Shown here: positions 11,475 to 21,487 of the stretch, piece after piece
Layout: each line of letters begins with the position of its first letter
Numbering within the stretch: the first letter of the stretch is position 1
IMG/VR virus record: IMGVR_UViG_3300044613_001703
Location: 1 to 39,556 of that record
Length of the DNA: 39,556 nt
Source of the DNA: a virus
Strand: one strand, 5' to 3'
Program-made: the position numbers and the translations under genes
Notes under the pieces: model-generated
Told to the model about the DNA's origin: nothing
The model's database searches: none
What the model saw: the letters and a program-made list of their open reading frames with translations, nothing else

Positions 11475-12701
11475 TTACCCCCAACGATGGGCACTTGGCA
11501 AGGGTATAATTGGGGGGCGGTTTTCTACCTTGGCGCGGCGCACGCCTTCGCAAGCGTAGCGCAATGCGTCTATGACGTGGTTCTTCTTATCTTCCAGGAT
11601 CGGCAGGATGCGGTCAGTCAAGGGGTCGCGCTTGTAGGAATACAGGGTCAGCTCGTCAATCGTGTGAACGCATCGCGGGTGAACCACGATATCATAGGAT
11701 TTCAGCCATTCCACCCCTTCCTCCAGGGATCGCGGCCCCTTGACTGCCGGGAAGATGCGCGGGAAGCCATGCTTTCGCATGTGCGAGATAGTCTCGGGCC
11801 GGGCATTATCGGCAGTCATCGGCCATTTCTCGGCCTCGGGAATGGTCATGAACAACTCGGGCAGGTTCACGATCTCACACCCGACCTGATAGGCTTCATA
11901 GTCCACATAGAGCGTCCGGCCTATGATGTGGCAGCGCACCAAGACGCTGGGGTCCACACTGAAACCCCAGTCAGCCCCCATGCGGTGGATGGCATCGCGC
12001 GGCGCGTCAAACTCTTCCACCCGCCAATTTCGGAACACGCGCGCCTCGCTGTTGGCCAGATACCCGCCAAGCCAAACGTGCTTGTATTTGTCCGGATCGC
12101 GGCGCCGATCATACTCCATTTCATCCCGTAGCACGTCCGGAAACCATGGGTTCTGGTCATAATTCACGCCAATGACCACGGTATCCTTGGGTGGCGTGTC
12201 GCCCCTCAGCAGATGGTCAACCGGGTCTGATTTCTCGCGCGGGTTCCAGGTGAACCATAACTCGCTGCCAGGCTTGCGAATGGTCGGGCGCAGCATGTCC
12301 AGGCTGGTTTGGCTAAGGCTCTGCGCCTCTTCCACCCAAGCGCGGTCATAGCCCTCCAGGGACTTGATGCTGTCTGCCGTATGGGTTTTCATGCCCTGGA
12401 AGATGATGCGCCCATCGCCCCGGCGCGACTTGATCACCGCCTCCTGAACCTCAAAGTAATCCCCGGCGCCTAGGGTTTCGATCTTGGTTTCAAGCAGGCG
12501 CTTGACGGATTGGGCAAGGCTTTTCTGGTTTTCTCGGACGCAAACGGAATAGGTTCCAGGGTCCAAGATATGCGCCTCAATCATGGCCTCGGCGAAGAAG
12601 TGCGACTTGCCGGACCCGCGCCCGCCCCATGCGCCTTTGTAGCGGGACGGCGCCAGCAACGGCCTTGCCCATGCCGGGGTTTGGATTTGCAGCGCGGTCA
12701 T
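11475..12701 (-). CDS. terL: Terminase large subunit (packaging ATPase and nuclease)
   Basis: A 408-residue DNA packaging motor of the PBSX/Terminase_3 kind. The ATPase has Walker A GGRGSGKS at 26-33, Walker B AWVEEAQ at 121-127 with the catalytic Glu pair, and the coupling motif FTWNP at 150-154. The RNase H-like nuclease has acidic residues in GADWGF (D244), TADNARPE (D298) and HVIDALRYA (D378). All key residues are present. It docks on the portal encoded next to it and cuts the concatemer. It overlaps the upstream HTH gene as ATGA. The type of end it makes (headful or cos) cannot be read from this alone, though relatives are often headful. Confidence 0.95.
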   Translation of the reverse strand: MTALQIQTPAWARPLLAPSRYKGAWGGRGSGKSHFFAEAMIEAHILDPGTYSVCVRENQKSLAQSVKRLLETKIETLGAGDYFEVQEAVIKSRRGDGRIIFQGMKTHTADSIKSLEGYDRAWVEEAQSLSQTSLDMLRPTIRKPGSELWFTWNPREKSDPVDHLLRGDTPPKDTVVIGVNYDQNPWFPDVLRDEMEYDRRRDPDKYKHVWLGGYLANSEARVFRNWRVEEFDAPRDAIHRMGADWGFSVDPSVLVRCHIIGRTLYVDYEAYQVGCEIVNLPELFMTIPEAEKWPMTADNARPETISHMRKHGFPRIFPAVKGPRSLEEGVEWLKSYDIVVHPRCVHTIDELTLYSYKRDPLTDRILPILEDKKNHVIDALRYACEGVRRAKVENRPPIIPLPSAHRWG

Positions 12702-12925
12702 TCAGTCGGAGCGATTGGTGTTAGCGCATTCCACCGCTCAAGCGGTATTTCGCGCCATTCATGCTTGATCATCATTTCCAAAAGCGCCACCACTGGCCCA
12801 GGCACGGCCCGCGTCCCGTCACACCAGCGGCGGACCGTGCGGGCGTCAACCATGGCAAAGCGCGCAAAGCCGGCCTGGGATAACCCAAGATCGGCAAGGG
12901 CGGCGCGGAATTGGTCAGGGGTCAT
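12698..12925 (-). CDS. XRE-like helix-turn-helix protein next to terL
   Basis: A 75-residue DNA-binding protein. MTPDQFRAALADLGLSQ and ARTVRRWCDGTRAVPGP form the usual helix pair of small phage HTH proteins. It is overlapped by ATGA with terL. A paralogue lies on the plus strand at 16628..16846: about 25 of the first 44 residues are identical, including QFR, LG-SQ, VD-RTVR-W and R(A)-PGP. Because it sits just upstream of terL it could take part in packaging, but its closeness to the regulator at 16.6 kb makes a transcription role equally likely. Both possibilities are inference. Confidence 0.8.
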   Translation of the reverse strand: MTPDQFRAALADLGLSQAGFARFAMVDARTVRRWCDGTRAVPGPVVALLEMMIKHEWREIPLERWNALTPIAPTE

Positions 12926-13091
12926 GGGGTAACGTCAACCAAAACGCTTTCACTAATGCCCAATCTTGAACGGCTGGCGCAAACCCGCGCTTAAAAGCCC
13001 GACAACACCGGAAAGCAGCGTCGGCCATATCGTGATCTTCAGCATCCATTGCGCGTTCTGCAATTTCGCGGGCGATCTGAAGGTTGGTCAT
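12915..13091 (-). CDS. Small hypothetical protein
   Basis: A 58-residue protein starting at ATG 13091 (MTNLQIAREIAERAMDAEDH). It is a helical protein with a Cys pair (FRCCRAFKRG, residues 28-29) and a Trp-rich end (QDWALVKAFWLTLP). It overlaps the following HTH gene by eleven bases. I do not recognise the family. It is the second gene from the late promoter. Confidence 0.65.
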   Translation of the reverse strand: MTNLQIAREIAERAMDAEDHDMADAAFRCCRAFKRGFAPAVQDWALVKAFWLTLPHDP

Positions 13092-13102: not shown

Positions 13103-13294
13103 TTATGCTGCTGACTTGGCGCATTCGTCGCCAGATTCAATCCACTCGCGCAGCAGCGCCAGCAATTCCGCGTCATCCATATCTTCGGGGTCAATGCCGC
13201 GCGCAATGCAAACATCAATCAAATTTCCCGGACCAGTCGTGCCATAAATGGCGCTCAGAAGGTCTTCGCGGCTGGTGTTTTTATCAATGAACAT
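13103..13294 (-). CDS. First gene of the late operon, small acidic protein
   Basis: A 63-residue acidic helical protein starting at ATG 13294, with GGAAG about nine bases upstream. It begins MFIDKNTSREDLLSAIYG, followed by DVCIARGIDPEDMDDAELLALL. It is the first gene after the late promoter at 13345-13373, about 44 bases from the predicted transcript start. It has no recognised family; its place at the head of the operon would make it one of the most transcribed late proteins. Confidence 0.7.
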   Translation of the reverse strand: MFIDKNTSREDLLSAIYGTTGPGNLIDVCIARGIDPEDMDDAELLALLREWIESGDECAKSAA

Positions 13295-13337: not shown

Positions 13338-13373
13338 TAAAAGGAACATAGGACCATTGGCCCGCACTGTCAA
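13338..13373 (-). promoter_or_regulatory. Putative late promoter with dyad in the spacer
   Basis: On the minus strand a perfect -35 TTGACA (13373-13368) and a -10 TATGTT (13350-13345) are 17 bases apart. The spacer contains GGGCCAATGG followed by TCC, an imperfect palindrome of the form GGnCCAnTGGnCC. The promoter reads into the structural genes beginning at 13294. Its sequence matches the promoter at 16388 on the plus strand at 24 of 29 positions, including the dyad, so a common regulator is likely. Promoter calls are from sequence only. Confidence 0.7.
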
Positions 13374-13416
13374 CAGAAAAAATGCGCGGTGCGTGAATTA
13401 TTTTTCGCCCATAAAT

Positions 13417-13450
13417 CGGACGTTCCGCCTGATTTACGTCCGCTTTTTAT
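13417..13450. terminator. Inverted repeat with T-run between 13447 gene and late promoter
   Basis: CGGACGT at 13417 and ACGTCCG at 13436 pair around a 12-base loop. On the plus strand CTTTTTATT follows directly, as in an intrinsic terminator. For the minus strand it lies just beyond the stop of the 13447 gene, so it could end or slow the replication operon before the late promoter starts. The stem is short, so confidence is limited. The rest of the 152-base gap holds the late promoter and no gene. Confidence 0.4.
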
Positions 13451-13893
13451 TCGCCGGGCTTATCCACAATCACGCGCTCGATCCGGGTGATCATCGCGCC
13501 ACCATCGGCGCCGGTCATCTCCAGCCCGGACTTCTCGTGCAAGCCGATCCTATTCAGCACGGCCAGCGCGGCTTGCAGTGCGCGCGGGTCGGCCTTGTCG
13601 TTGGCAATGTCAATCACGGTCTGGATTGCCAGCGGCGCGGCCTGCTCCAGCGTTTCACGGGCCTTATGCACTTTGCCCTCGCCGTTCTTCATGCCAGGCG
13701 GGCGACCTGGGCCGGGTTTGCGCTCCACTGGACCTCGGGCACGGCCACCCCAGCCTGCGCCAGTCGCCGGGCCACCTCGCGCGCGCGCGCGACTATTTTC
13801 TACCATGTCTGGCGCCTTTTCTACCATTTTTGGCTCCTGTGCTGGTTTTTCGGGTTTAGCATGGCTTCCGGCTTTCGGGGAAGGGTTTTTCAT
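13447..13893 (-). CDS. Candidate terminase small subunit
   Basis: A 148-residue protein. Residues 1-70 are basic and disordered (many K, P, R, G) and include GPGRPPGMKNG, the AT-hook-like start common in small terminases. A helical part follows: KARETLEQAAPLAIQTVIDIA, then DPRALQAALAVLNRIGLHEKS. GLEMTGADGGAM and ITRIERVIVD close the chain, a tail like that of many alphaproteobacterial phage TerS proteins. TerS recognises the packaging site and loads TerL. It is separated from terL by three small genes and by the late promoter, which is unusual; the alternative is a DNA-binding protein of the replication operon. Confidence 0.6.
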   Translation of the reverse strand: MKNPSPKAGSHAKPEKPAQEPKMVEKAPDMVENSRARARGGPATGAGWGGRARGPVERKPGPGRPPGMKNGEGKVHKARETLEQAAPLAIQTVIDIANDKADPRALQAALAVLNRIGLHEKSGLEMTGADGGAMITRIERVIVDKPGE

Positions 13894-14081
13894 CGGCTGG
13901 CCCGCAACCGTTCTGCAAGCGCCGTAAAACGCGCTACAAGCCCCTCCAGGTATTCCCGATCAAACTCGCTCAGGTTTGGCGGTTTAAGCCCATGGGCGCT
14001 TTCGATTGCGCGAAGTTCGCAAAATGTCGCCACAACCTCATCGGCATGGGCGCGCGCCACTTGGGCGGGGGTAAGGTCCAT
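13890..14081 (-). CDS. Small hypothetical helical protein
   Basis: A 63-residue protein starting at ATG 14081, overlapping the upstream stop as TGATG and the next gene as ATGA. It begins MDLTPAQVARAHADEV and ends AERLRASR; DREYLEGLVARFTAL is a second helix. It is mostly alpha-helical without Cys clusters or membrane segments. The family is not recognised. The tight coupling suggests its product is needed together with the neighbouring candidate small terminase. Confidence 0.65.
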   Translation of the reverse strand: MDLTPAQVARAHADEVVATFCELRAIESAHGLKPPNLSEFDREYLEGLVARFTALAERLRASR

Positions 14082-14428
14082 CAGCGCCACCGCTTGCCGT
14101 GCTGGGGGGTGCGGCGAGGGATCAGCCGGTCGGCGATGGCGCTGGTCAGGCCGGCGGGGGGTGGCCAGGGCTGGCCATCGGCGGTCCATTGATCGAAGGC
14201 TGCCTTGATGCTGGCCTTGGTCGGGTAGGCGCTGGCAGGGTCTGGCGCCACCTCGCATGGGGCGGAGGGGGCGCTGGGGGCGGTGCGAGGAGGGACTTTT
14301 TCAAACCTTCCCACCTGCGCATATGCGCGCGCGCCCGTATTTGTAAAAGGTTGGGAAAACTCCCCATCGCATCGCCCCCTCCGCCCCCCTTCGGGGTCAA
14401 ACAGGTCAAGCTGGGATTTAGAAATCAT
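14081..14428 (-). CDS. Small protein with N-terminal sliding-clamp-binding motif
   Basis: A 115-residue protein beginning MISKSQLDLFDPEGG. Residues 6-10 (QLDLF) fit exactly the bacterial beta-clamp-binding consensus QL[S/D]LF. The middle is Ser/Pro/Ala-rich and probably flexible. The C-terminal 45 residues (AYPTKASIKAAFDQWTADGQPW and SAIADRLIPRRTPQ) are a basic domain of unknown fold. It overlaps the stop of the primase-helicase gene by eleven bases, so it is made with a replication protein. A role in recruiting or blocking the host DnaN clamp is inferred from the pentapeptide and the context; the rest of the chain gives no family. Confidence 0.75.
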   Translation of the reverse strand: MISKSQLDLFDPEGGRRGRCDGEFSQPFTNTGARAYAQVGRFEKVPPRTAPSAPSAPCEVAPDPASAYPTKASIKAAFDQWTADGQPWPPPAGLTSAIADRLIPRRTPQHGKRWR

Positions 14429-15878
14429 CTTCCATCTCCTTCAATTTGATACCGCCTACCCAATCCTGTCCCCGAACGCGGCGACGGAATAAACCCTTGC
14501 GGCGATTGATATTTTCGGCAAATTCTTGGTTGCTCGGAGCGTGTTCCCCGTTCGCTTTGGCCCAATTCCGGAAGTCGGAATAAAGGGCGCCAGGCCGCGC
14601 GCTGAAGGTTGCGTCAAGGGCGCACCGCTCCGCAATCCACCTGCCGAAAGCGTCTTGCAGGTCGAAATACTCGGCTGTTTTCGCCGCGATGGCCGGCGCG
14701 GTGCCGAGGCGCTGCTGTTGCCACGCAAGGCAACCCTCGATCATCCATTGCAGGATTGCCGGGTATTCTGCCTCTAGCCGGGTTTTGAGGGTATGGTCAG
14801 GCTCTGCCGGTTCGTTGTCAAATGGCACGATCCGCAACCGGCGCTCCATGGCCTTGCTGCGGCCCTTGAGGCGCGGCGCGTGATTGCCGACGAACATCAG
14901 CTTATATTGCGGCCAATACTCAAAGGGGCGCCCGAACGGCTGACGCGCGGAGACTGGCGCTTCGTTGCCGGTCAATTCCTTGATCTGGCTTTCGGCCCAA
15001 GCGTGGCCCGCCTCTGTCTCTGACGCGGTGACAAGGCGACTGCCGGCCATACGGGCGCGGTAGTATTCCACGTTCATTCTGGAATCTGCCGTGAAGGCCC
15101 CCATGGGCGCCGCTACGGCATAACCGCCTAGGATCGTGGTGACCGTGGTAACAAAAACGCCTTTGCCGTTGCCGCCGCTGCCATACAGGAAGGCCAGCAT
15201 TTCCTCTGTAACGTCGCCGGTCAGGAAATACCCGCAAAGGCGCTGTAGGAAGGCAATGGTTTCCGGGTCGTTGGCGGTCGCTTCGATTAGGAAGCTGCGC
15301 CATAGGACCGGATCGGATGAAGGAGCGGCGGGGGCTATGAACGTGTTTCGGCTGATGTATTCGCCGGGCTTGGCATCTCGTTTCTTGCCTGTTTTCAGGT
15401 CCACCACGCCACCTGGAACGCCGAGAAGCCAAGGGTCAGCATCCCAAACGGCTTGATGCACGGCGATGCGCGTGTCCGACTTGGCAAACTCTAAGACGTT
15501 GCGGGTGAAGGATAACTTGCCCATGGCCTTGCGCTCGCCCTCGGATATGCCTGGCGTCGCCTGAAGGTCGCGCAAGAATTGCCGGGCGCGGTCATTGGCC
15601 TCGCCTATCCCGTCAACCGTCCACTTGCCCTTGCTGAAAAGAAACCATTGGCCTGCGGTATGGTCCCAAACCATCTTGCCCTCCTGCTTTGCGGCGAAAG
15701 CAAGGGCGGCTTGCTCTTCCGAAAAAGACATAATGCCAGCCTCTGACTTGGCAGACTTGGCGGCGGCACGTTGCTGGCGTGCCGATCCGGTAAGGGCGCG
15801 GTTCCAATCGTCGGGATCATAATCTGACACGTCTGGCGTCCGGTTCAACTGCATCAAGAATGCGGCGGGCGGCTTCAT
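14418..15878 (-). CDS. D5/P4-family SF3 helicase (primase-helicase type)
   Basis: A 486-residue replicative helicase of the D5_N/phage-plasmid primase P4 family. Walker A GSGGNGKG is at 233-240, motif B RLVTASETE at 281-289, the sensor motif KLMFVGNHAP at 326-335, and the arginine-finger region ERRLRIVPF at 345-353. Upstream, residues 90-215 fit the D5_N domain (SDTRIAVHQAVWDADPWLLG, then GGVVDLKTG). No prim-pol or zinc-finger module is present at its N-terminus; the gene before it may supply one. The start at ATG 15878 has GGGAG about ten bases upstream and overlaps the previous gene by 62 bases. It is probably the replication initiator helicase. Confidence 0.92.
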   Translation of the reverse strand: MKPPAAFLMQLNRTPDVSDYDPDDWNRALTGSARQQRAAAKSAKSEAGIMSFSEEQAALAFAAKQEGKMVWDHTAGQWFLFSKGKWTVDGIGEANDRARQFLRDLQATPGISEGERKAMGKLSFTRNVLEFAKSDTRIAVHQAVWDADPWLLGVPGGVVDLKTGKKRDAKPGEYISRNTFIAPAAPSSDPVLWRSFLIEATANDPETIAFLQRLCGYFLTGDVTEEMLAFLYGSGGNGKGVFVTTVTTILGGYAVAAPMGAFTADSRMNVEYYRARMAGSRLVTASETEAGHAWAESQIKELTGNEAPVSARQPFGRPFEYWPQYKLMFVGNHAPRLKGRSKAMERRLRIVPFDNEPAEPDHTLKTRLEAEYPAILQWMIEGCLAWQQQRLGTAPAIAAKTAEYFDLQDAFGRWIAERCALDATFSARPGALYSDFRNWAKANGEHAPSNQEFAENINRRKGLFRRRVRGQDWVGGIKLKEMEDDF

Positions 15879-16233
15879 TCTCCGACATCTCCCAAGTGTA
15901 GCTTGCTAGGCTGATGATGCTGCGCCCTTTGGCGCCGTCTGTTTTCCAATCACATGAAACAGTGCAGAACCAGACGGCAGGCGCTTTGCGGTGGCGTTGT
16001 AGCAAAAGGCAAGGCCAATCGGCGCGATCTGCGCGCGTGTCTAGGCTTTCCCTCAAGATGGCGTATTCAAACCAAAGCGGCGTTCCAATGCGCGGCGCTT
16101 GAAATATCGCGCGCTTGTATCCCATCGCGGCCAATGCCATAGCCAAACTGTCGCGCGACATGCGCGCGTATTCATTGGCGATCTCTGCCGCAGTTGGCGC
16201 GGGAAGCGCATCATATATTGACCGGCGCTTCAT
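15817..16233 (-). CDS. Protein before the SF3 helicase, possible degenerate primase zinc-finger domain
   Basis: A 138-residue protein; the start at ATG 16233 overlaps the previous stop as ATGA. The second half has WPCLLLQRHR, AVWFCTVSCDW (C75, C90, C94) and then GRSIISLASYTWEMSENEAARRIL. The order Cys, aromatic strand, Cys-x3-Cys, Gly, small helix and a final helix with (S)-EA-R-L is like the CHC2 zinc domain of DnaG-type primases, but the spacing is not canonical. The first half (IANEYARMSRDSLAMALAAMG) is helical. Together with the SF3 gene it could be a split primase-helicase. This is a weak structural guess; otherwise unknown. Confidence 0.7.
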   Translation of the reverse strand: MKRRSIYDALPAPTAAEIANEYARMSRDSLAMALAAMGYKRAIFQAPRIGTPLWFEYAILRESLDTRADRADWPCLLLQRHRKAPAVWFCTVSCDWKTDGAKGRSIISLASYTWEMSENEAARRILDAVEPDARRVRL

Positions 16234-16376
16234 TCCTTGCCCTGCTTCCATGTCTCAAAATGCGCCTCGCGTTCCGCGTCCTCTACCGGGTCCGGCACGC
16301 GCTCGGCAAGGTTGCGGGCGAAGCGCTGGTAAAAGGCCAGGCGCTCTTCTAGGGTGGATGGGACGGGTTCAGACAT
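16230..16376 (-). CDS. Small hypothetical protein at head of the primase operon
   Basis: A 48-residue protein, MSEPVPSTLEERLAFYQ at the start and FETWKQGKE at the end. ATG 16376 has AAGGG eight bases upstream, and the TGA overlaps the next ATG. It is acidic and helical. The family is unknown. It faces the plus-strand regulator island across only 46 bases, so the two transcription units probably share control sequences. Confidence 0.65.
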   Translation of the reverse strand: MSEPVPSTLEERLAFYQRFARNLAERVPDPVEDAEREAHFETWKQGKE

Positions 16377-16387
16377 AAAAATATCCC

Positions 16388-16416
16388 TTGACAGATAGGG
16401 CCAATGGGCCTAAGTT
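16388..16416 (+). promoter_or_regulatory. Putative promoter of the HTH island, same type as late promoter
   Basis: TTGACA at 16388-16393, 17 bases, then TAAGTT at 16411-16416. The spacer has GGGCCAATGG followed by GCC, forming GGnCCAnTGGnCC around a central A. It matches the minus-strand promoter at 13373 at 24 of 29 positions. A start point about seven bases past the -10 falls at 16423, the A of an ATG, which predicts a leaderless message. The shared dyad lies between -35 and -10, where a repressor would block polymerase. Confidence 0.7.
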
Positions 16417-16422
16417 ATGCGT

Positions 16423-16638
16423 ATGTCCAAGCCCGCAACCCGCCCCGCCCTTCCTGCCGATGCAATCGGCTTCATCGCTTGCCGTGACGACCGGCCCGAA
16501 CGCCTGGCGCTGTTCAAGGCCGACGGCAGCCTGTCCAACACGTTCCGCATTGACGAAACGATTGACACGCTGCGCCCCGCCCTTGCGGCGGCTGGCATGA
16601 CGGTGGACGCGCAAGGCATTGTCCGCCGTGTCGCCTGA
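16423..16638 (+). CDS. Small protein encoded by a predicted leaderless message
   Basis: A 71-residue protein starting MSKPATRPALPADAIG at ATG 16423; an ATG six bases earlier is less likely because it lies at the edge of the -10 box. No Shine-Dalgarno sequence is seen, which agrees with the promoter position. The chain has short strands and helices (GFIACRDDRPERLALFKADGS, then TIDTLRPALAAAGMTV) with a periodicity like a small alpha/beta protein. The family is not recognised. Its last bases overlap the start of the HTH gene at 16628, so the two are probably co-translated. Confidence 0.7.
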   Translation: MSKPATRPALPADAIGFIACRDDRPERLALFKADGSLSNTFRIDETIDTLRPALAAAGMTVDAQGIVRRVA

Positions 16639-16846
16639 GCAATTCCGGGAAGCGATTGCCGCGCTGGGCATGTCGCAACGCGCGGCGGCAACTGCGCTTG
16701 AGGTGGATGAACGCACAGTGCGGAAATGGGCGCTTGGAGAGCGCGCGATCCCTGGCCCGGCAAGGGTGGCGCTACGTTGCATGATGATCATCCATGAGCG
16801 TATCGCGCGCCAGATTTGCGGCCAGATTTGCAATCGAAAGCAGTAA
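16628..16846 (+). CDS. XRE-like helix-turn-helix regulator, paralogue of the 12698 protein
   Basis: A 72-residue protein. The GTG at 16628 is chosen because the protein then starts MSPEQFREAIAALGMSQ, aligned with MTPDQFRAALADLGLSQ of the 12698 paralogue. VDERTVRKWALGERAIPGP is the recognition-helix region. Its last 75 bases lie opposite the end of the methylase-like gene (16772..17425), so the two convergent genes overlap. It is one of only two minor genes on the plus strand inside a long minus-strand block and is transcribed from a promoter with the same dyad as the late promoter. A repressor or activator of both promoters is a fair inference. Confidence 0.82.
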   Translation: MSPEQFREAIAALGMSQRAAATALEVDERTVRKWALGERAIPGPARVALRCMMIIHERIARQICGQICNRKQ

Positions 16847-17936: not shown

Positions 17937-18127
17937 CGCTCTTTCTCCCTTTCCTTAAACTCCGCCACTGTTACGCAATCCGTAACATGCAGCGATTGCC
18001 CTTCCTGTAGCCCTGCCAGCATGTAAGCCTCAGCCGCCGCACATGTGCGATGCGCGACATGGCCCTCCTCGCACATGGCGCCTTCGGCTGGGCATATTAG
18101 GAATAGCAGGATGAAGGCGGCGGTCAT
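17933..18127 (-). CDS. Exported Cys-containing micro-protein
   Basis: A 64-residue protein with an N-terminal hydrophobic stretch (MTAAFILLFLICPAEGA) that looks like a cleavable signal peptide, and a soluble part with three Cys (C19, C29, C51) and a charged end (EFKEREKER). After cleavage about 45 residues would reach the periplasm, where the cysteines could form a disulfide. It lies in the middle of a DNA-modification operon, coupled by ATGA on both sides. A superinfection-exclusion or host-envelope role is possible; the family is unknown to me. Confidence 0.7.
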   Translation of the reverse strand: MTAAFILLFLICPAEGAMCEEGHVAHRTCAAAEAYMLAGLQEGQSLHVTDCVTVAEFKEREKER

Positions 18128-20658
18128 GATGCAACCGCCGCGATTTCTGCAATATCGAAAAGCGAAGGCATAGAAGCTTCGCGCTCCGCTTCCCGCAAAT
18201 GGCGAAGGCTATCTGTCCAATACTCATGATTAAGCTCCACCCCGGCCCCTTTCCTGCCCAGCTTCAAAGCGCAATAAGATACCGTTCCGAGACCATGGAA
18301 AGGATCGTAAACCAATTCTCCCGGATTGGTGTATCGATTGATAAGCCTTTCCACAATGTCAAACTGCAACGGGCAAACATGCTGTTGCAGATTGCGCTGC
18401 GCTTGCGCGCCATTAAGGGTCCGCATTCTGATAACATCATCCCAAACCGTAGGATCATGGGAGCCAGGCGCAACTGCCATGAAAGTCGCCGGCAAAACGC
18501 CGCGCCGGTCCATATCTTCTGCCACCGCAACATGCGCGCCGTGATCATACACGCGCTCGCGCGTCATCAATGTGAAGTGCTTTGCCAATACATCAGGTCC
18601 AAAGCCTAGCAATTCATCGGCGGTCAGAAAGCGATTTCCGCTGCTGCGCCAGAATGCGTGAGCGTCAACTTGCCAGCGCCCGCGCGTGTATTGCGCCTTG
18701 TCCTTCACCACCGGAACATCGGCGTAGGCGGTGCTGGTATCGCTTGGAAGCTTGCGGAAAAGCAACACATACTCAGGGCACCCGACGCCCATCTTGCTGC
18801 CATCTTTACATTGTTCCGTCCAGCCCAGGCGGTAAGTCTGGTTGTTTTCCCTCACAACGTCCGTAACCACCGTGATCATGCCCATATAGACAAAGCCATG
18901 CCGCCGATAATGCTGAATGCAATCCACATGGAAAGGCTCAACGGAAGGCATTCCAAGGCCAGTCACATTGCCATACCTGATCCGATCTTTGACGTGAATG
19001 CAGGCTAGTCGCCCCGGCCTCAGAATGCGAAGCAGGTTAGGCGTTAAAAACTCCATTTGCTGAAAGAAACGGCCATTATCCGAATTGTGGCCGAAGTCCT
19101 CATAGCTTTCGGAATACTCATAATGATTGCCGAAAGGAACGCTGGTAACGATCAGGTCCACGCTATCGCTTTTCATCCGGTCAGCTTCAAGCACCGTATC
19201 ATTATGCACGGCGGTCCACCCGGCGCCGCGCGCTTCCTTGCGCTCAACTCCGATGGTGCGGGCGAGTTCGGCTTCCACCCCTGCCGTCGCAAGGCCATGC
19301 TCCCGGATCAAGTCAGACATGCGCTCGGTCAGTTCCCGATGCTCGCCCCATTTGCGCTCCAGGCTTTCCCGCACCGGCCTTTCAGTTTCCGCAAAAATGA
19401 TGTCAATCTCGCATGGGTGCGATTGCAGAAAGCGGTGAATGCGGTGGATAGCCTGCACAAAGTCGTTGAACTTGTGATCAATCCCGACAAAGATGGCGCG
19501 ATGGCAAAAGCGCTGGAAATTGCCGCCCGATCCGCTGATTTCCTTTTTCGTCGCCAGAAGGCGAAGCTTGCCCTCTTTGAAATCCATAATGGTGCGGGCG
19601 CGATCTTCGTCATCTTGAGAACCATAGACGGCCCGCGCTTCCGGTAATGCCCCGCAAATGGCATGGCGTTCGCTTTCAAGATCATGCCACAAAATGAAAT
19701 GCTCTTCTGGCGATGCGTTCACAATCTCGCACATTTTCGCAATGCGCCGGTCGAGTGTGTTGCGCTTCTCCTCTGCCGCACGCGCCAGCCCAACTGCGCC
19801 ATCGGTGATCAATACGCCTTGGCCGTCGCGCTCCACCTTGCCTTGCAGGCTGTCCACCGGCACTTCATGCCAGCGCACCACCAATTCGGGTAGGGAATAG
19901 CCTTCGTCAGAATAGCCCAAATCAGAAGGCTTTTGCACAAATGCGGCCCATGAGTGAAGCCAAAGGAAAAACTCCTTTTCCATGTGCGGGTAAAGCGTCA
20001 GATTGTTCGCCTGTTCACTGTCACGCTGGAAAAACCGCGTCAGGGCTTGGCCCGTATCGGCAATGCCAAGGAAACCCGCGTAATGAATCAGCTCCTTGTA
20101 TTGGTTTGGCGAAGGCGTAGCGGTCGCGACAAAACGATATGGCACAATCTGAAACAGGTCAATGAAAACCTGATAGGTTTTCGATCCGTAGGACCGCAAG
20201 ACGCTCGCTTCATCCAGGCTCGCCACCTTGAAAAGCGAAAGGTCAATCTTGCCCTCGCGCACGCTTTCATAGTTTGTCAGATATATGCCAGCGCCGCCGA
20301 TTTCCTCAGTGCTACGGATAAACTTGACTTGAATGCCCAGCATTGCAGCATCAGCCATAAACTCATGCCGCACGTCAAGCGGCATGATGATCAGGCCACG
20401 CCCGCCGACCTCTGCCAACATCAGCCGTTCAATTTCTAACTGCATGATGGATTTACCAAGGCCGAAGCTGGCGAAAATCGCCGCGCGCCCCTTCCGGCAA
20501 GCCCATTGAATAAGGTCCGCTTGATGAGTTTTGGCAAGCGGCGTTATCGCATTGCGCGGCACTGAAAAGCCATGCTCCGCACCAAAACGAAACTTGCTTT
20601 GCAGAAACTCAAGATAGGCGCTGGAATCCAAAAGACCGGCTTTGTTCATGTGGTTCAT
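18124..20658 (-). CDS. SF2 helicase fused to a beta-class DNA methyltransferase
   Basis: An 844-residue two-domain enzyme. Residues 40-440 are an SF2/SNF2-type ATPase: Walker A ASFGLGKS at 63-70, DEAS at 149-152, ATATPSPN at 178-185, ATKKEISGSGGNFQ at 369-382 and QAIHRIHR at 402-409. Residues 480-825 are a circularly ordered amino-methyltransferase: the catalytic loop region DLIVTSVPFG at 501-510 precedes the SAM motif VYDPFHGLGT at 783-792, with CPLQFDIVERLI just before it. The catalytic tetrad reads SVPF where SPPF or DPPY is usual. GAGG six bases before the ATG supports the start. A helicase joined to an N6A/N4C methylase suggests DNA protection coupled to remodelling or strand travel. Confidence 0.9.
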   Translation of the reverse strand: MNHMNKAGLLDSSAYLEFLQSKFRFGAEHGFSVPRNAITPLAKTHQADLIQWACRKGRAAIFASFGLGKSIMQLEIERLMLAEVGGRGLIIMPLDVRHEFMADAAMLGIQVKFIRSTEEIGGAGIYLTNYESVREGKIDLSLFKVASLDEASVLRSYGSKTYQVFIDLFQIVPYRFVATATPSPNQYKELIHYAGFLGIADTGQALTRFFQRDSEQANNLTLYPHMEKEFFLWLHSWAAFVQKPSDLGYSDEGYSLPELVVRWHEVPVDSLQGKVERDGQGVLITDGAVGLARAAEEKRNTLDRRIAKMCEIVNASPEEHFILWHDLESERHAICGALPEARAVYGSQDDEDRARTIMDFKEGKLRLLATKKEISGSGGNFQRFCHRAIFVGIDHKFNDFVQAIHRIHRFLQSHPCEIDIIFAETERPVRESLERKWGEHRELTERMSDLIREHGLATAGVEAELARTIGVERKEARGAGWTAVHNDTVLEADRMKSDSVDLIVTSVPFGNHYEYSESYEDFGHNSDNGRFFQQMEFLTPNLLRILRPGRLACIHVKDRIRYGNVTGLGMPSVEPFHVDCIQHYRRHGFVYMGMITVVTDVVRENNQTYRLGWTEQCKDGSKMGVGCPEYVLLFRKLPSDTSTAYADVPVVKDKAQYTRGRWQVDAHAFWRSSGNRFLTADELLGFGPDVLAKHFTLMTRERVYDHGAHVAVAEDMDRRGVLPATFMAVAPGSHDPTVWDDVIRMRTLNGAQAQRNLQQHVCPLQFDIVERLINRYTNPGELVYDPFHGLGTVSYCALKLGRKGAGVELNHEYWTDSLRHLREAEREASMPSLFDIAEIAAVAS

Positions 20659-20695: not shown

Positions 20696-21487
20696 TTACC
20701 GCCAAGCGCTCGGCGCTTGCCAGCGCATCCTGCCCGCCGCCGTATCCGCCGCGCGTTGCGCCTTGCGCGCCGCCTCGGCTTTGGGCAGCGGTATCAGGCA
20801 AAGCGCATAGTGATCAGCGCAATATGGCGACGCCGCGCCGTTGTCGCGCGCCACGCATGGCGCATCGCAAAAGCGATATTCACCGCGCGTCTCGCCATAC
20901 AGGTATTGGCATTTTGTCCCGGAAAAGACCCGGCGCGGCGCTACATCAGCGCACGCGCCGGGCAAGGTTCGCTCAGGCTGAAAGAACGCCTGGCGCTCAA
21001 CGGCGGAGGAAGCGACGCCGGAGACATGAGCGGCACTTGGCCGCAATGGGAAAGCCGCCCGCATATCGGCAACGGGAAGTTCTCGATTACTGCGGGCGGC
21101 AGGCCGCGCCACCACGGCACGGCTTTTTCGTTGCGCGCTTGCCGAAAGCGAGTGCGCTAATCCTGGATCACGCGGCGGCAAGCCTAATTCGCGCGCCACG
21201 TCTTTGACGCGCCGCTGGCCCAATCCCGTGCATTGCATGATGCGCGCGAAGGACGCCGTTCCCCAAAGGTCGCGCACGATTTCGCGCTGCTGATCCGTAG
21301 TAGGTTTGACGCTGGCATGATACGAATTGCACGGTTGCCGCCTGGGGAAGCCTTCACGATGCGCTTTGCCAACGACTTGGTTTTTATTCAAGCCCATCCT
21401 GCAACCAATTTCAGTTGCAGTAAGGCCATGGTCCCAAAGCTGGCGCAGCGTGGCGATGCTCTCAGGCGTCCAATCGTGATTAGCCAT
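20696..21487 (-). CDS. GcrA-family regulator
   Basis: A 263-residue member of the GcrA family, the alphaproteobacterial cell-cycle regulator that binds the sigma70 RNA polymerase and acts at promoters carrying methylated GANTC. The N-terminus has WTPESIATLRQLWDHGL and TATEIGCRMGLNKNQVVGK, the GcrA DNA-binding helices. Residues 65-105 look like a second HTH-like repeat (TDQQREIVRDLWGTASF). The C-terminus has KCQYLYGE, EYRFCDAPCVAR, PYCADHYALCLIP, matching the CQWP...FCGAP...YCEAH pattern that contacts sigma. It is longer than host GcrA (about 170-180). It is third in its operon, overlapping the 21480 gene. It should redirect host polymerase to phage promoters or imitate GcrA. Confidence 0.9.
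   Translation of the reverse strand: MANHDWTPESIATLRQLWDHGLTATEIGCRMGLNKNQVVGKAHREGFPRRQPCNSYHASVKPTTDQQREIVRDLWGTASFARIMQCTGLGQRRVKDVARELGLPPRDPGLAHSLSASAQRKSRAVVARPAARSNRELPVADMRAAFPLRPSAAHVSGVASSAVERQAFFQPERTLPGACADVAPRRVFSGTKCQYLYGETRGEYRFCDAPCVARDNGAASPYCADHYALCLIPLPKAEAARKAQRAADTAAGRMRWQAPSAWR

Follow-up and report, generated by a model that had tools for sequence, protein, structure and literature searches.

Two probable Aca-like accessory cassettes sharing one operator in a 39,556-bp virus record

Every bacterial Aca family examined is reported to have an inverted repeat in the core promoter, and the Aca families tested to repress their own promoters (PMC9410906). The operator of Aca1 is TAGGCACAATGTGCCTA (PMC9410881). 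Here, we analyze the IMG/VR virus record IMGVR_UViG_3300044613_001703, which was taken whole (39,556 bp; the window) and encodes a portal of the P22 type along with a large terminase subunit of the Terminase_3 family. Two of its promoters carry closely similar palindromes in the −35/−10 spacer, and each precedes short open reading frames (ORFs) followed by the gene of a small helix-turn-helix (HTH) protein, HTH1 or HTH2. We consider it very probable that both are autorepressed accessory cassettes of the Aca-like kind and have a common operator, the spacer dyad, on which the HTH at the end of each cassette acts. This reading is based on the promoter/dyad geometry, the same-strand HTH linkage, the helix/operator covariation, and the modularity of the cassettes, all of which are read from the sequence.

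The promoter pair and its closest known relatives

The 29-mers TTGACAGTGCGGGCCAATGGTCCTATGTT (13373-13345, minus strand) and TTGACAGATAGGGCCAATGGGCCTAAGTT (16388-16416, plus strand) are identical at 24 of 29 positions. They lie about 3 kb apart on opposite strands and are directed away from each other. The original prediction had recognized them as near copies, which our analysis confirms. It had also noted a palindrome in the spacer; this is real, but the conserved dyad is larger than was stated, spanning 17 bp (TAGGNCCANTGGNCCTA) with its right arm extending into the −10. The window contains exactly two copies of GGNCCANTGGNCC, one at each promoter (shuffle mean 0.08; two copies were reached in 1 of 100 shuffles). 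When up to three mismatches are allowed, the whole 29-mer pattern identifies these two sites alone (0.00 expected). The site is also conserved in related phages, as a search of the genome and its relatives revealed: the operator 2 promoter is found in L033, L053, L034, L116, L216, L030, L110, and L071, and operator 1-type promoters are conserved upstream of HTH1 relatives. In the promoter logo of the family, ATCA is also conserved past the −10, around positions +1 to +4.

The Aca1 promoter of Pseudomonas phage JBD30, TTGCGA-ATTAGGCACAATGTGCC-TAATCT (sequence from PMC9410881), likewise has a 17-bp dyad in a 17-bp spacer, in the same register as in the window. Its operator shares the outer TAGG/CCTA arms with the window class and differs only at dyad positions 6/12 and at free positions. 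Like the window HTHs, Aca1 is a small HTH protein encoded downstream in its own operon, and its fold is similar (TM score 0.64) at about 26% identity. In contrast, its equivalent of residue 33 (HTH1 numbering) is Y, combined with A6 in the operator, where the window has R/K with C6. JBD30 also differs from the window by a second inverted repeat and by known anti-CRISPR (Acr) genes in the operon.

Aca10 (PDB 7XI5) is the best profile match, and its dyad, like those of the window, is centered on 1 bp and overlaps the −35/−10 region. The Aca10 operator TACGCTCATTGAGCGTA fits the rule for residues 32 and 33 described below. With the form TACGCTCA-T-TGAGCGTA, it differs from that of the window, as do the residues Q37-Q38 compared with R32-R33/K, and the Aca10 operon contains acrIC genes. 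The Aca10 residues probed by electrophoretic mobility shift assay, Q22, Q37, and R44, align with Q17, R32, and R39 of HTH1; Q37 and R44 are important for binding (PMC9410881).

Searched against the PDB, the family profile retrieves Aca10 (1.8e-14), then Aca3, HigA2, Aca1, and Aca2. With the Aca10-like members removed, Aca10 is still found at 1.7e-7, Aca3 at 1.4e-5, and Aca1 at 2.2e-5. An AlphaFold model of HTH1 (pLDDT 87) resembles HigA2, Aca2, Aca1, Aca7, and Aca10, with weak E-values, none of them below 0.001. Both window proteins (HTH1, 75 aa; HTH2, 72 aa) correspond to the small single-domain HTHs, mostly of 60-80 aa, that are homologous to Acas. Both promoters contain an inverted repeat in the core promoter of the operon, and both HTH genes are downstream of small genes. 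The upstream genes of the window match no known anti-CRISPR family, and we therefore use the label Aca-like rather than Aca proper; such a gene is present in the family locus L292 (see below).

The plasmid repressors ArdK and KorA resemble the proposed window repressors as small HTH proteins acting on strong promoters of mobile elements. ArdK is a 102-aa protein whose binding sites are TTGACA direct repeats next to the −35 box (PMC9723621), and KorA-family proteins have about 100 aa. Both were rejected as the regulator on the basis of protein length, PDB relatives, and site (PMC9723621, PMC3937220). A plasmid-type regulator was likewise ruled out, as only four distant Bradyrhizobium plasmid matches were found.

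Linkage of the dyad to small HTH genes

A first scan of IMG/VR, by DNA pattern alone (TTGACANNNNGGNCCANTGGNCC), yielded 112 sites in 110 stretches. At 82 of the 112, a small HTH gene homologous to HTH1/HTH2 is located within 1.2 kb downstream on the same strand, and 19 have less than 700 bp of downstream sequence. No family HTH is found downstream on the opposite strand; upstream, there are five on the same strand and two on the opposite one. Since this pattern fixed G3 and C6 of the dyad, the evidence was taken from the HTH linkage, the flanking bases, and the later scans, and not from conservation within the pattern. Bacterial and archaeal genomes, where the pattern occurs mostly by chance, served as a control: an HTH is present at 10 of 14 sites with the −10 TA and at 1 of 32 others.

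A protein-led search starting from HTH1 relatives gave the same picture. A dyad of 25-45 bits is found between the −35 and −10 upstream of most members with enough upstream sequence, while outside the promoter the dyad score in these loci is rarely above a few bits. In nearly all of 30 whole records there is a single promoter-dyad, and there are two where HTH1 and HTH2 are both present. Each cassette is also found without the other. About one dyad per record, tied to an HTH, is the signature of an autoregulated gene and not of a regulon.

Covariation of recognition helix and operator

A second, generalized scan (TTGACANNTANGNNCANTGNNCNTA) left dyad positions 3, 5, and 6 and their mirror positions open. 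Among its unique pairs, R32 is combined with G3 (48/48) and Q32 with C3 or T3 (21/21). C6 is found in 43 of the 45 pairs with a basic residue 33 and in none of the 25 pairs with a non-basic one. Predictions were recorded before operators with A6, G6, or T6 were scanned for and, as predicted, the linked HTHs all have R32 and none is basic at residue 33. The A6 operators occur with Y, S, or N33, those with G6 with E or Q33, and T6 with G33 (one case). The prediction that G6 would be paired with E33 alone proved too narrow, Q33 being commoner in the scan. The A6 set includes many loci of Aca1 itself, whose promoters are JBD30-like (L347-L349). In L328 (Q32, H33), the operator has C3 and C6, and residues 32 and 33 behave as though they act separately.

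The raw contingency p-values of 1e-16 to 1e-18 ignore relatedness, and all HTHs but one fall in one single-linkage cluster at 45% identity. State changes were therefore counted on a tree. On this rough tree, which is weak, being built from a short alignment, and in which residues 32/33 were masked, base 3 and residue 32 change five times each, base 6 changes 19 times, and the residue 33 classes 15 times. Such repeated changes indicate that the helix/operator match is not one ancient split.

The conserved spacer had been proposed to be a regulator site, and the scans by DNA pattern alone, the same-strand HTH linkage, and the covariation all favor this proposal. The covariation also suggests that the HTHs bind the dyad and repress the promoter. 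A host regulator site shared by phages, or a GGNCC methylation site, could instead have been inherited incidentally with the HTH. GGNCC palindromes are Sau96I-type recognition sequences, and the sites occur in phages of many hosts. However, both within and across families, changes in the operator bases go together with changes in the recognition helix of the linked HTH, and a record usually has a single site, linked to its HTH, which makes this explanation extremely improbable.

Returning to the Aca-like reading, the evidence leans modestly toward a wider claim, namely that a large superfamily of phage-borne Aca-like repressors, from Aca1 through Aca10 to the window, uses a simple two-residue code to read one 17-bp frame, TAnGnnCAnTGnnCnTA, whose position within the sigma-70 spacer is fixed. 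In this code, R32 would specify G3 and Q32 C3, while residue 33 would specify C6 (R/K/H), A6 (Y/S/N), G6 (E/Q), or T6 (G).

Further Aca-like classes, with REY, RQY, or RQW at residues 32-34 and TAGGCGCANTGCGCCTA operators, are seen in L290, L326, L366, L369, L371, and L376. A group of longer HTHs with the helix RQWRKY (L044, L073, L102, L288 (Pantoea), L263, L281 (Cupriavidus)) has the same GGNCC operator, often near its own start codon. This group is possibly like the VC1465 Xer-activation family, to which 19 of 34 members have a weak match.

Cassette modularity, the terminase junction, and proposed function

The HTH gene at 16628 and its paralogue at 12698 are downstream of their respective sites (Table 1), as the original prediction had placed them. 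Across 13 loci (the window included), the operator 1 promoter, the length of its leader, and HTH1 are kept, and the first ORF is exchanged for non-homologous ORFs at the same offset. This looks like a set of interchangeable accessory genes under one controller. Short ORFs, mostly of 60-130 aa, are found between promoter and HTH in 69 of 80 non-redundant loci. One of them, in L292 (3315-3776, minus strand), is an AcrIF11-family anti-CRISPR (111 bits; cut-off 50). It immediately follows a TACG-type operator, precedes an Aca10-like HTH, and was found by DNA pattern alone. Behind operator 2, the 71-aa ORF starts at 16423 and not at 16417. Since the ATG is exactly 7 nt past the −10 in 9/9 HTH2-type promoters, the mRNA of this ORF is probably leaderless.

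Table 1. Coordinates of the two promoters, the cassette genes, and the flanking terminase genes in the window. TerS and TerL, small and large terminase subunits.
Feature	Position	Strand	Remarks
TerL, directly downstream of HTH1 cassette	11475..12701	−	Terminase_3, 1.1e-31
HTH1, 75-aa Aca-like HTH, recognition helix RTVRRW; proposed autorepressor	12698..12925	−	
58-aa ORF (MTNLQIA...), gene 2 of HTH1 cassette	12915..13091	−	
63-aa ORF (MFIDKN...), gene 1 of HTH1 cassette	13103..13294	−	NCBIfam, PHROGs, and Pfam gave no convincing match
Promoter with operator 1, TTGACA-17-TATGTT	13345..13373	−	17-bp dyad at 13349-13365 in spacer, right arm overlapping −10
Putative TerS, upstream of HTH1 cassette	13447..13893	−	Assigned from its position and from alignment with relatives' TerS-like ORFs; Pfam gave no match
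Promoter with operator 2, TTGACA-17-TAAGTT	16388..16416	+	17-bp dyad TAGGGCCAATGGGCCTA at 16396-16412
71-aa ORF, first gene behind operator 2	16423..16638	+	No family match; ATG at predicted +1
HTH2, 72-aa Aca-like HTH, recognition helix RTVRKW; proposed autorepressor	16628..16846	+	

The original prediction had called the minus-strand site a late promoter and had suggested a possible two-paralogue switch for late gene expression. Cassette 1 lies between the terminase genes. In such a switch, HTH1 and HTH2 would compete for the shared operator, and the release of operator 1, as the main late promoter, would activate the terminase and structural genes. Operator 1 and HTH1 are indeed directly upstream of the terminase and portal genes, HTH1 cassettes precede several different terminase types, and both paralogues share the operator class. 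However, in L116 (TerL 98% identical to that of the window) and L118 (95%), just 146 and 283 bp, respectively, separate TerS from TerL, with neither the site nor HTH1 there. In many phages with more distantly related TerL, TerS and TerL are directly adjacent. In L132, L136, L140, L153, and L307, the same slot holds an Aca10-like cassette with a TACG-type operator. HTHs upstream of the terminase were sought by profile; a strict helix regular expression misses the Aca10-like class. Given the relatives with nearly identical TerL that lack the promoter, and those with an Aca10-like cassette in its place, the operator 1 promoter is best read as part of a facultative insert, and the TerS/TerL junction as a hot spot for such cassettes. 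Read-through from it into the terminase gene could not serve as the general late control. Furthermore, the cassettes occur separately and most phages have a single site, in disagreement with an obligate switch; the promoter is a consensus sigma-70 promoter that needs no late activator, and the small ORFs behind operator 1 are exchanged among phages. Late control by competing paralogues is thus unlikely.

For the preferred reading, autorepressed accessory cassettes, we propose the following mechanism. Transcription from a strong sigma-70 promoter, whose −35/−10 spacer is the operator TAGGNCCANTGGNCCTA, would begin once the promoter enters the cell. The short proteins would be made first (the 71-aa protein from operator 2; the 63-aa and 58-aa proteins from operator 1), then HTH2 or HTH1, respectively. 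A dimer of the HTH would fill the spacer dyad, exclude RNA polymerase, and switch the cassette off. Since both HTHs have R32 and R/K33, and the two operators belong to the G3/C6 class, HTH1 and HTH2 would each be expected to repress both cassettes. Dimer binding, repression, timing, and cross-repression are inferred here, as is the role of the small ORFs, which by analogy may encode anti-defense proteins.

Several points weigh against this reading. The single-sequence similarity of HTH1/HTH2 to solved proteins is weak (best HigA2 0.0098 for HTH1 and Aca10 0.04 for HTH2), and by fold HigA2 is as close to HTH1 as Aca1 is. Just one Acr was recognized among 89 intervening ORFs, and the small ORFs of the window match no known Acr. 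The HTHs may be activators or have a dual role, and read-through from operator 1 into the terminase gene is possible.

The HigA2 similarity raises the question of toxin-antitoxin modules, in which the HTHs would be autoregulated HigA/MqsA-type antitoxin-like regulators and the small ORFs toxins. HigA2 is both the best single-sequence match and the best fold match of HTH1, and an MqsA-type model weakly matches 19 of 34 family members. The antitoxins with HigA2/MqsA C-terminal domains share with the window HTHs a small HTH fold and autoregulation, which is inferred for the window. However, an adjacent cognate toxin was not found, and no toxin family was detected among the window ORFs or the 89 intervening ORFs, almost none of which match a family of known function. 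The ORFs are mutually unrelated and exchanged behind a constant HTH1, a poor fit to a co-evolved pair, and the operator, its geometry, and the linkage are of the Aca1 type. We regard toxin-antitoxin modules as very unlikely and retain the Aca-like cassettes.

Two other genes of the window are relevant to regulation and DNA modification. A GcrA-like protein (20696-21487, minus strand; Pfam GcrA 2.8e-13) is perhaps a better candidate than the HTHs for a phase regulator of the phage, as GcrA is an alphaproteobacterial sigma-70 cofactor. An 844-aa protein (18124-20658, minus strand) combines a C-terminal DNA methylase half (N6_N4_Mtase) with an N-terminal half that is weakly SNF2-like.

An Aca autorepressor with its operator is already known as a kind. 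As far as searches of the open literature and of Aca sequences with solved structures show, this operator class, paired cassettes sharing it, and the Aca1/Aca10/window recognition pattern have not been reported; no PMC text contains any of six versions of the operator tried. The analysis corrects a misreading, in that a strong promoter beside the terminase need not be a late promoter. Aca repressors are a main signpost to unknown anti-CRISPR and anti-defense genes. The operator described here is part of a wide Aca-like class, present in phages and in other mobile elements, and searching for it by DNA pattern requires no knowledge of the protein. The exchanged small ORFs behind these promoters provide a concrete list of anti-defense candidates, and the helix/operator covariation a testable recognition code for the family. 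If the superfamily code is true, anti-defense cassettes would be findable, and their cross-repression predictable, from the DNA pattern alone, and one phage could hold two cassettes that were acquired independently and are coupled through their common operator.

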